Source: an uncultured Treponema sp.
Lineage (GTDB): Bacteria > Spirochaetota > Spirochaetia > Treponematales > Treponemataceae
Assembly: GCA_946615905.1 (NCBI GenBank)
Contig: CAMOIE010000009.1
Coordinates: 1 to 64,000, forward strand
Length of the DNA: 64,000 bases
Direction: 5' to 3'
Shown here: positions 15,356 through 56,168 of the stretch, in pieces
Layout: each line of letters opens with the position of its first letter
How positions within the stretch are numbered: the stretch's first letter is position 1
Translations under genes and position numbers: made by a program
Notes under the pieces: generated by a model
The model's database searches: none
Seen by the model: the letters and a program-made list of their open reading frames with translations, nothing else
What the model was told of the DNA's origin: nothing

Positions 15356-15367
15356 CCATGCGCTGGC

Positions 15368-15445
15368 GGTCTTGCAGGGGCAAGACCGAGACTCACTAAA
15401 ATCGCTGCGTCACTCGCGATTTTGCCGCCTTGCGGTCGTTCCCTA
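15368..15445 (+). repeat. Structured intergenic repeat, copy A (three hairpins)
   Basis: H1 ggtcttgc-aggg-gcaagacc; H2 aaaatcgc-tgcgtcactc-gcgatttt; H3 ccgc-ctt-gcgg; tail tcgttcccta. Related copies at 38.36, 41.07 and 55.92 kb. Confidence 0.8.
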
Positions 15446-15620
15446 GCTTAGGGATAGTAAGGGGCGCGAAAGCGCGTGCGCGGCAGAATGCAAGCACCGA
15501 AGCCGAAAGGCGTAGCCCTGAATAGCCCGGCGGCGGAGCCGAAAGCCCCAAAAAAGAAGATTGTTTCAAATTGAAAAAAGTGCTAGTGTTCTACCATATT
15601 TTTATTTAGAGGCTTATTCT

Positions 15621-38123: not shown

Positions 38124-38390
38124 GTTTTTTGGGCGGCCCGGCCTTGCGTAAGCGTCCTTGCTTACGCAAGGCCACGAGTTTTGCTTTCCGCCGCAGTCCG
38201 CGTCGGATTTGCTACGCAAAACAGCAAAACTCGCGCATCTCATCTTCGCTGCCCATCCATGGGCAGTGGCCGTCGGCAGTTCCGGGGTTCGGTAACCCTC
38301 ATTCTTCGACGCTTTGCGTCTCGAACTACGCCCCTTCATTGCCTGCCGCTCCACGACGCGGTTTTGCGGGGGCAAAACCGAGACTCGCTA
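38124..38390. repeat. Modular intergenic repeat block, copy 1
   Basis: Shares agttttttgggcggcccg and gccgtcggcagttccggggttcggtaaccctcattcttc.acgctttgcgtctcgaact with 39244..39350; contains a 14-bp perfect stem ggccttgcgtaagc..gcttacgcaaggcc. Confidence 0.8.
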
Positions 38391-39185
38391 AAAGTTACGG
38401 GCCTCCAAATCTGAGACGATTTTCTCATAAAGTTCCAGAATGTCCTTGATTCCACTTCCTTCCTTTTTTGTGAACGGGCGGCGGCGGGCATCAACTTGGT
38501 CAGCGTGCGAGATTCCACGCTTGGAATTGCTTTCGATTGTCCCCTTGAAATCTCCCCAGACACAAGAGTCCGGTGAAAGTAGTCCGTCATTCCTCCCTTC
38601 AAAAGCCCAGACGACTAGTGCCGGTATGACCATGAAAATGTCGCTGAATGGACTTTTCATCGTGCAGGCGTAGCTTTGGTAGTAAACGTCGGACGAGTCC
38701 GGGTTTTCGCAGTTGAATTTTTGTGCGGCTTTCGTTGTCAGCGTGTAGCAGACTTTTGCCGACTGGGGATTTTTGTCTCCCCTGATTTTCATCGCAAGGT
38801 CAAAGAAAAATGCCCCGAATTCGATTATCTGGCGCGGAATTTTCAACAGGGAGTCGAGCGTTTTGGAGCCTAAATTCGGCGTGTTTATCATCGTGAGGGA
38901 GGCTATGGATTTTAGCCCCAGGGTTGAGATTGCGTAGCGCATGTCGAGTCCGCCTTTTGAGTGGGCGATTACGTTGATTTTTTCGCAATTGCAGGCGGTC
39001 AAGATTTCATCTACGCGATTTACTAAAAAGCGGCCGTTTTCCTCAGTGCTTGCGTTTGCGTCCTGACCGCTCAAAAAGACTTTGCAGCCGAGATTTCTCA
39101 GCCTTTCTGGAATCCGTCCCCAGTAGCCGATTTTCTCGTCGTCCCTAAAACCCATGCCGTGAACTAAAAGAATTGGGAATCGCAT
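38388..39185 (-). CDS. Triacylglycerol lipase-like alpha/beta hydrolase
   Basis: PILLVHGMGFRD; INVIAHSKGGLDMRYAIS nucleophile elbow; stop codon lies inside the flanking repeat. Confidence 0.85.
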   Translation of the reverse strand: MRFPILLVHGMGFRDDEKIGYWGRIPERLRNLGCKVFLSGQDANASTEENGRFLVNRVDEILTACNCEKINVIAHSKGGLDMRYAISTLGLKSIASLTMINTPNLGSKTLDSLLKIPRQIIEFGAFFFDLAMKIRGDKNPQSAKVCYTLTTKAAQKFNCENPDSSDVYYQSYACTMKSPFSDIFMVIPALVVWAFEGRNDGLLSPDSCVWGDFKGTIESNSKRGISHADQVDARRRPFTKKEGSGIKDILELYEKIVSDLEARNF

Positions 39186-41068: not shown

Positions 41069-41158
41069 CTCTTTTGCGGTCTCGCAGGGGCTCGACCGAG
41101 ACTCGCTCAAACTGCTGCGTCACTCGCAGTTTGCCCCGCTTGCGCGGGTCGCTCCCTA
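41069..41158 (+). repeat. Structured intergenic repeat, copy B
   Basis: H2 caaactgc-tgcgtcactc-gcagtttg; H3 cccgc-ttgc-gcggg; tail tcgctcccta; loop identical to copy A. Confidence 0.8.
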
Positions 41159-41174
41159 TGCTATAATATTCTCA

Positions 41175-55921: not shown

Positions 55922-56000
55922 TAGGGAGCGACGGCCTAGCCGGAAAATCGCGATTGAATGAGCGATTTTAGCGAGTCTTCCCTGCCCCCCTGCGGCAGGG
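55922..56000 (-). repeat. Structured intergenic repeat, copy C
   Basis: Minus strand: H1 ccctgcc..ggcaggg; gactcgct; H2 aaaatcgc-tcattcaatc-gcgatttt; H3 cggc-tag-gccg; tail tcgctcccta. Confidence 0.8.
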
Positions 56001-56168
56001 AGGGAGCGACGGCCTAGCCGCGGCTAGTCGGCGAAGTGCGAATAGCCCGACGGCGACTTGTCGCCGGGCCGCCCGAAAGTTTCATTATTTTCTGATTCTA
56101 GCCAACAATTTTAAAGTTGACTAGAATAAAATCGCATATTATAATTTACTGTGAAAAGGGGGCGTTGT

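Follow-up and report, generated by a model that had tools for sequence, protein, structure and literature searches.

Copies of the element in the window

The window, by which the whole analysed stretch of 64,000 nucleotides from an uncultured Treponema sp. is meant, carries three full copies (A, B and C) and one truncated copy of an intergenic element of about 80 bp. Direct reading of the sequence and a covariance-model search of the own genome (G000, contig C9) placed them at 15367-15445 (+), 41077-41158 (+), 55922-56001 (-) and 38359-38439 (+, E 0.09), respectively, which agrees to within one base with the positions and the order of parts given in a preliminary description.

From 5′ to 3′, copy A consists of helix H1 (15367-15388, CGGTCTTGC / GCAAGACCG), the linker AGACTC, the 5′ strand of a short helix P4 (AC, 15395-15396), helix H2 (15398-15423, AAAATCGC / GCGATTTT with the loop TGCGTCACTC), helix H3 (15425-15435, CCGC / GCGG), the 3′ strand of P4 (GT, 15438-15439) and the conserved tail TCCCTA (15440-15445), the final CTA of which reads TAG on the opposite strand. 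In copy B, H1 (41077-41098) contains an internal TC/TC mismatch (CGGTC TC GC AGGG GC TC GACCG), P4 is formed by GC at 41105-41106 and GC at 41151-41152, H2 (41108-41133) has the arms CAAACTGC / GCAGTTTG around a loop identical to that of copy A, and H3 (41135-41148) is CCCGC / GCGGG. Copy C, on the minus strand, differs in H1 (CCCTGCC / GGCAGGG), in H3 (CGGC/GCCG) and in the H2 loop, which is TCATTCAATC. The truncated copy (38359-38393, +) retains only H1 (CGGTTTTGC / GCAAAACCG), GAGACTCGCT and AAAA, its H2-H3 part being lost at the junction with the 3′ end of a minus-strand gene. Thus the two-sided changes in H2 between copies A and B, the changes in H3 and the linkers are as first described, but the H2 loop is not invariant as had been claimed: TGCGTCACTC is common to A and B only, and elsewhere CCATAGTC-type or short CTC loops occur.

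Two further features were observed next to the copies. In the region 41163-41174, copy B is followed after a few bases by a TATAAT and, about 16 bases past its end, by the start codon ATG of a gene that begins like a signal peptide, and copy B may be part of that promoter. Moreover, a second palindrome family, with larger units, frequently encloses the element or adjoins it. Its units start with GGGCG-hairpin-(T)CGGGCTAT or GTTCGCTAACGCTCATT, and their end lies near CCATTGCC or ATCCCTACC plus GCGC; members are located at 56074-56045 (-) by copy C, at 15446-15552 (- sense) by copy A and at many other loci (L002-L019). At L022 and L023 (G000:C14 and C8) a larger unit with the inverted ends CAATTTTGACG..CGTCAAAATTG carries an identical element copy at both places.

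Host range, pairing and covariation

With copy A as query, blastn retrieved about 20 copies from the own genome (2.96 Mb, 47 contigs), and the covariance-model scan proposed in the preliminary description, performed with a model built from 19 copies, returned 45 copies there at E≤1, with values below 0.001 for about 37. The same model detected copies in 33 of 59 same-genus genomes (own included), with 1 to 72 copies each, and none in many others; the highest numbers in this genus search were 72 (G073), 40 (G000), 30 (G020), 26 (G060 and G023 each) and 21 (G081). When 85,462 species genomes were scanned for an exact pattern, at least 116 stretches matched; among the matches listed, 80 of 80 came from records of Treponema or Spirochaetaceae, with T. 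bryantii B25, T. ruminis RU1 and many MAGs from the ruminant gut among them. As far as seen, the element is confined to gut and rumen Treponema. Searches with copy A against 50,697 phage and 72,556 plasmid records gave no match, and carriage by phages or plasmids was rejected on this ground. In the literature nothing was found that describes this Treponema repeat family, the closest descriptions being those of REP, ERIC/RUP/YPAL and CGTC/GTAG repeats (PMC8266576, PMC2229807, PMC3733652).

Pairing is retained to a degree far beyond all controls. In the 19 copies 96.1% of the cells were paired and 17 of 20 pairs had changed on both sides, with 88 cells carrying two-sided changes versus a single cell with a one-sided change. 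For 33 more divergent copies the values were 97.7% paired cells and 142 two-sided changes, compared with 69.7% and 38 in shuffles and with 42-44% pairing when the partner was slid by one column. With the loop size equally free, all eight H2 pairs formed in 89% of the real hairpins, in 0.07% of shuffles and in 11% of two-copy chimaeras, and due to these far lower control values the choice of loop size is not the source of the pairing. The 137 distinct copies contained 60 different 5′ arms of H1, 38 of H2 and 29 of H3, with Watson-Crick fractions of 0.82, 0.97 and 0.96, respectively; these counts and the padded alignments rest on our own segmentation into hairpins, against which the slid partner, the shuffles and the chimaeras served as controls. 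The deficit of H1 is in part due to a recurrent internal mismatch of TC opposite TC (CGGT-TC-AGGC-ACA-GCCT-TC-ACCG), as in copy B. The terminal CTA was present in 123 of 137 copies. Single-sequence fold energies were modestly better than those of shuffles (z -0.7 to -2.0). A constraint on the pairing of this dispersed element, as suggested in the preliminary description, is therefore strongly supported by the excess of two-sided changes over the controls: what is conserved is the shape, together with the short P4 and the unpaired linkers (AGACTC, TCCCTA), and the arm sequences are free. The types of H1, H2 and H3 assort almost independently (mutual information H1-H2 2.26 vs 1.98 in shuffles), and their joint inheritance was rejected on this ground.

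The two linkers also pair with each other, so that the element has four helices, one of which had been missed in the preliminary description. In P4, bases following GACTC in the first linker pair with bases preceding TCCCTA in the second, closing a junction that bears H2 and H3. The types found were GC/GC (73 copies), GCC/GGC (26), AC/GT (12), GAC/GTC (3), GT/AC (2) and GGC/GCC (1), and the helix differs even within the window (AC/GT in copy A, GC/GC in copy B). Pairs 1 and 2 were each Watson-Crick in 119 of 124 copies, with shuffle maxima of 107 and 113, and a third pair was present in 31 copies (shuffle maximum 15).

P4 bears directly on the possibility of an old, immobile family in which hairpin-templated repair, i.e. 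template switching during replication, keeps the arms perfect palindromes. Such a process would account well for changes that consist of whole Watson-Crick blocks with almost no intermediates, and for modules that assort nearly independently. However, the strands of P4 are separated by about 40 nt that include two hairpins, so local palindrome repair cannot maintain this helix, and empty sites and nested copies (see below) indicate movement; we regard this explanation as very improbable. Given the distance between the P4 strands, the whole folded strand would have to be seen by something. If recognition is based on the shape, that is on the junction of P4, H2 and H3 plus H1, the sequence can drift almost without limit.

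The kind of mismatch was used to distinguish constraint on DNA from constraint on RNA. Among the 2708 cells of the 137 copies 31 G-U and 36 A-C mismatches were counted. G-U thus amounts to about 1% of the element pairs versus 9% in the tRNAs of the same loci (96/1053 pairs), a control that was scored for G-U only because ARAGORN marks allowed pairs only and A-C is unreadable. A selected RNA strand would give more G-U than A-C; since G-U was not the commoner of the two, a constraint at the DNA level is favoured. Structure kept in DNA is accordingly preferred over an RNA element, although the changes seem to occur block-wise, so that few intermediates of either kind are to be expected.

Insertion loci, neighbouring genes and movement

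Among 154 distinct insertion loci, the right-hand neighbour, next to the CTA end, was a convergent gene 76 times and a co-directional one 37 times (p 0.0003), and the orientation of the left-side gene showed no significant bias (66:50). In T. ruminis, the genome of which is complete, 22 of 27 copies (19 of 24 if tandem pairs are counted once) run against the strand that carries most of the local coding sequence. The replichore boundaries were set here by coding direction, because the GC skew at 20 sampled stretches was too weak for a firm placement of the origin. This strand bias fits insertion into the lagging-strand template, but it follows equally from the bias towards convergent genes.

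A 3′-end RNA element had been named as a possibility in the preliminary description, and a positional bias towards gene 3′ ends (76:37) is indeed real. A regulatory RNA in 3′ untranslated regions could be selected for its fold, with a role in protein binding, in termination or in the stability of the mRNA, and the orientation bias would then reflect use by the upstream gene. The position downstream of genes in fixed orientation, the covarying junction helix and an element 80/80 identical between two species (L145 and L151 of G020/G060), in a locus with flanks about 92% identical, would all suit such a function. Yet selection on RNA is left unsupported, since the copies are antisense to the genes at whose 3′ ends they lie and G-U is no commoner than A-C and far below the tRNA level. 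Presence and absence at orthologous genes are also without pattern, copy A has no terminator-like site (GC-rich hairpin followed by a T run), the fold energies are only modestly better than those of shuffles, and an Rfam search of the window at gathering scores returned two tRNAs only and no match to the element. Overall, a regulatory RNA is considered unlikely.

At 21 loci the CTA terminus coincides exactly with the TAG stop codon of the convergent gene, and 15 of these 21 genes end in Met or Trp versus 4 of 308 control ORFs (1%). The loci are in part non-independent, as an lptB-like gene contributes four, a potA-like gene two and an lptG-like permease two, all named by sequence resemblance judged by eye and without family search. 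Of the lptB-like genes compared in 30 species, nearly all have ..F(H/S)M as their last residues and, at the same position, the stop codon TAG or TAA. In G000, G022, G060, G073 and G023 a copy begins at this TAG, with arms differing between genomes, and nearly all other orthologues shown have the same end, with TAG or TAA, and no copy. Similarly, the potA-like gene ends in KKW-TAG plus a copy in G020 and G073 and, where it has no copy, in KKW-TAA in most genomes shown (e.g. G060, G022, G028, G018, G061). As orthologues without a copy share the gene end, the Met or Trp codon preceded insertion, which points to a site preference for TG-TA or GG-TA. Insertions into stop codons may survive because the element supplies a new stop. 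The copies at the lptB-like stop could alternatively be old and inherited, their arms having been replaced later.

Empty sites were identified by flank alignment at seven pairs of loci (L148/L152, L168/L212, L123/L146, L120/L147, L136/L275, L143/L298 and L146/L154), with zero to few bases lost and no constant duplication. In addition, several copies lie within the apical loop of another palindrome (GCGGGG-ACA-CCCCGC) in both orientations, and tandem copies occur in the own genome at C27, C19, C8 and C1. Together with differing copies at one orthologous stop codon and copy numbers of 0 to 72 per genome, these sites, although few empty ones could be aligned by their flanks, make mobility well supported, and the gain of sites has occurred repeatedly. 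Some loci show further peculiarities. At L139 (G073) and L309 (G020) the element-free orthologous site retains the last 10 bases, CCACTCGCTA, resembling a remnant of excision or deletion. At L035, L130 and L137 (G023, G073) the element occupies the junctions of tandem duplications that comprise tRNA 3′ ends and the terminators downstream of them. At L029 and L086 (G004, G028) two species share a site at which the element falls within an open reading frame of about 300 codons, and it may be translated in frame there.

The insertion boundaries allow two other routes of movement to be weighed. A MITE, or an element of the ERIC/RUP kind, that an ordinary DDE transposase moves into TA dinucleotides would be expected to be bordered by TA, and TA is indeed found at the 3′ end of nearly all copies, some copies are flanked by it on both sides (TACG..CCCTA), and both TAA and TAG stops contain it. 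However, the element has no terminal inverted repeats, TA at the 5′ end is not general (TACG in 8 of 137 copies) and at least one empty site (L120/L147) has no TA at the insertion point, which renders this route distinctly unlikely. A constant TA duplication was rejected because TA is nearly always present 3′ and 5′ only in a minority, and a simple target-site duplication was rejected because direct repeats occur at few loci only (17 bp at L005, 8 bp at L138 and L004; none at other loci). The same repeats, being variable, would be compatible with spread via RNA and reverse transcriptase, as would the precise CTA 3′ end combined with a variable 5′ (H1) boundary; but a G-U signature is seen on neither strand, and this is the least probable of the readings considered here.

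Candidate enzymes and relation to known elements

A REP-like unit mobilised by a REP-associated tyrosine transposase (RAYT) had been suggested at the outset. The mode of dispersal agrees with this suggestion (empty sites, nesting, variable copy number), and the enzyme does not: no Y1_Tnp (PF01797) match was found in G000, G020, G073, G081 and G023, i.e. in five of the six genomes with at least 20 copies, in assemblies that for all carriers but T. ruminis are incomplete (61-96%; G000 96%, G073 85%, G023 61%). The sixth, G060, contains a Y1 match of IS200 size (134 aa) and T. ruminis contains two IS200-type matches; proteins of RAYT length (about 250 aa) occur in genomes with 0 to 5 copies. None of the Y1-bearing loci checked matched the covariance model of the element, and the IS200 flanks in T. 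ruminis, G060 and G018 are unlike it. RAYT or IS200 as general mobiliser was rejected due to the lack of Y1 in most high-copy genomes and the dissimilar IS200 flanks, and IS110 (PF02371) was rejected since it is absent from the six carriers checked (G000, G020, G073, G081, G023 and G022). In T. ruminis (CP031518, 2820317-2821453; L424/L425) two identical IS200-type transposase genes lie about 780 bp apart.

REP, BIME and REPIN elements with their TnpA-REP (RAYT) are small dispersed palindromes with a GTAG-type end tag (PMC8266576, PMC3733652). The Treponema element resembles them in the internal mismatch of one hairpin and in being non-autonomous and often clustered. A possible counterpart of the tag is GTAG or ATAG at one end of its reverse strand; the base preceding TAG on this strand is G in 54%, A in 26%, C in 15% and T in 5%, with stop-codon cases mostly GTAG. 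It differs in its length (about 80 nt, folded into three hairpins plus the closing helix, compared with a REP hairpin of 20-40 nt) and in its almost unconstrained arms. By hairpin length and by the missing Y1 gene in most high-copy genomes it is not a member of the REP/RAYT group. With the ends of IS200/IS605 and their non-autonomous derivatives it shares hairpins near the ends, a preference for target sequence and insertion into palindrome loops, and the strand bias of T. ruminis may indirectly reflect a preference for the lagging-strand template; both kinds of element have no terminal inverted repeats, the termini here being CGG.. and ..CCCTA with H1 and P4/H3 in subterminal position. In contrast to IS200/IS605, a recognisably linked TnpA with matching ends does not accompany it. 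ERIC, RUP, Correia/NEMIS and YPAL/RU-2 are non-coding elements of less than 200 bp, with TA termini (ERIC, RUP) or dyad-symmetric targets and variable duplications (YPAL) (PMC2229807), but they have a fairly constant sequence and mostly terminal inverted repeats, whereas the arms of the Treponema element are free and such repeats are missing. CGTC-tagged palindromic repeats are known from Spirochaetes and other phyla without a dedicated transposase (PMC3733652); they differ in size and architecture, and CGTC is found in only some Treponema copies and is no fixed tag there.

The explanation to which we incline, if with some reserve, is that of a non-autonomous mobile element of about 80 bp which is recognised as a folded single strand by an enzyme. 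It is probably mobile DNA that works like REP or IS200/IS605 ends. One strand would fold into hairpin H1, followed by P4 closing the junction with H2 and H3, and an enzyme would recognise this folded single strand together with the fixed linkers and insert the element, by analogy with the TnpA enzymes that use the hairpin ends of IS200/IS605 and REP. Landing would take place mostly downstream of genes and in many cases precisely at a stop codon that follows ATG or TGG (TG or GG, then TA), where the terminal TAG of the element would become the new stop and leave the insertion harmless. A new class of small mobile elements, recognised by the three-dimensional shape of a folded DNA strand plus two short linkers, inserted preferentially at stop codons that follow a Met or Trp codon and moved by an enzyme that does not belong to the known Y1/RAYT group, is a tentative and rather doubtful extension of this model.

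To judge by the window search, Rfam 15 does not contain this covariance family, the behaviour of which indicates that strong covariation in an intergenic repeat need not point to RNA; the G-U/A-C mismatch ratio can be of help in separating RNA from DNA constraint. In this element shape is separated from sequence unusually cleanly, with dozens of natural arm variants present in a few genomes of cultivable rumen Treponema. With these variants, whether a mobile-element enzyme reads shape or sequence becomes directly testable, and the orthologous genes provide a natural set of stop-codon replacements.
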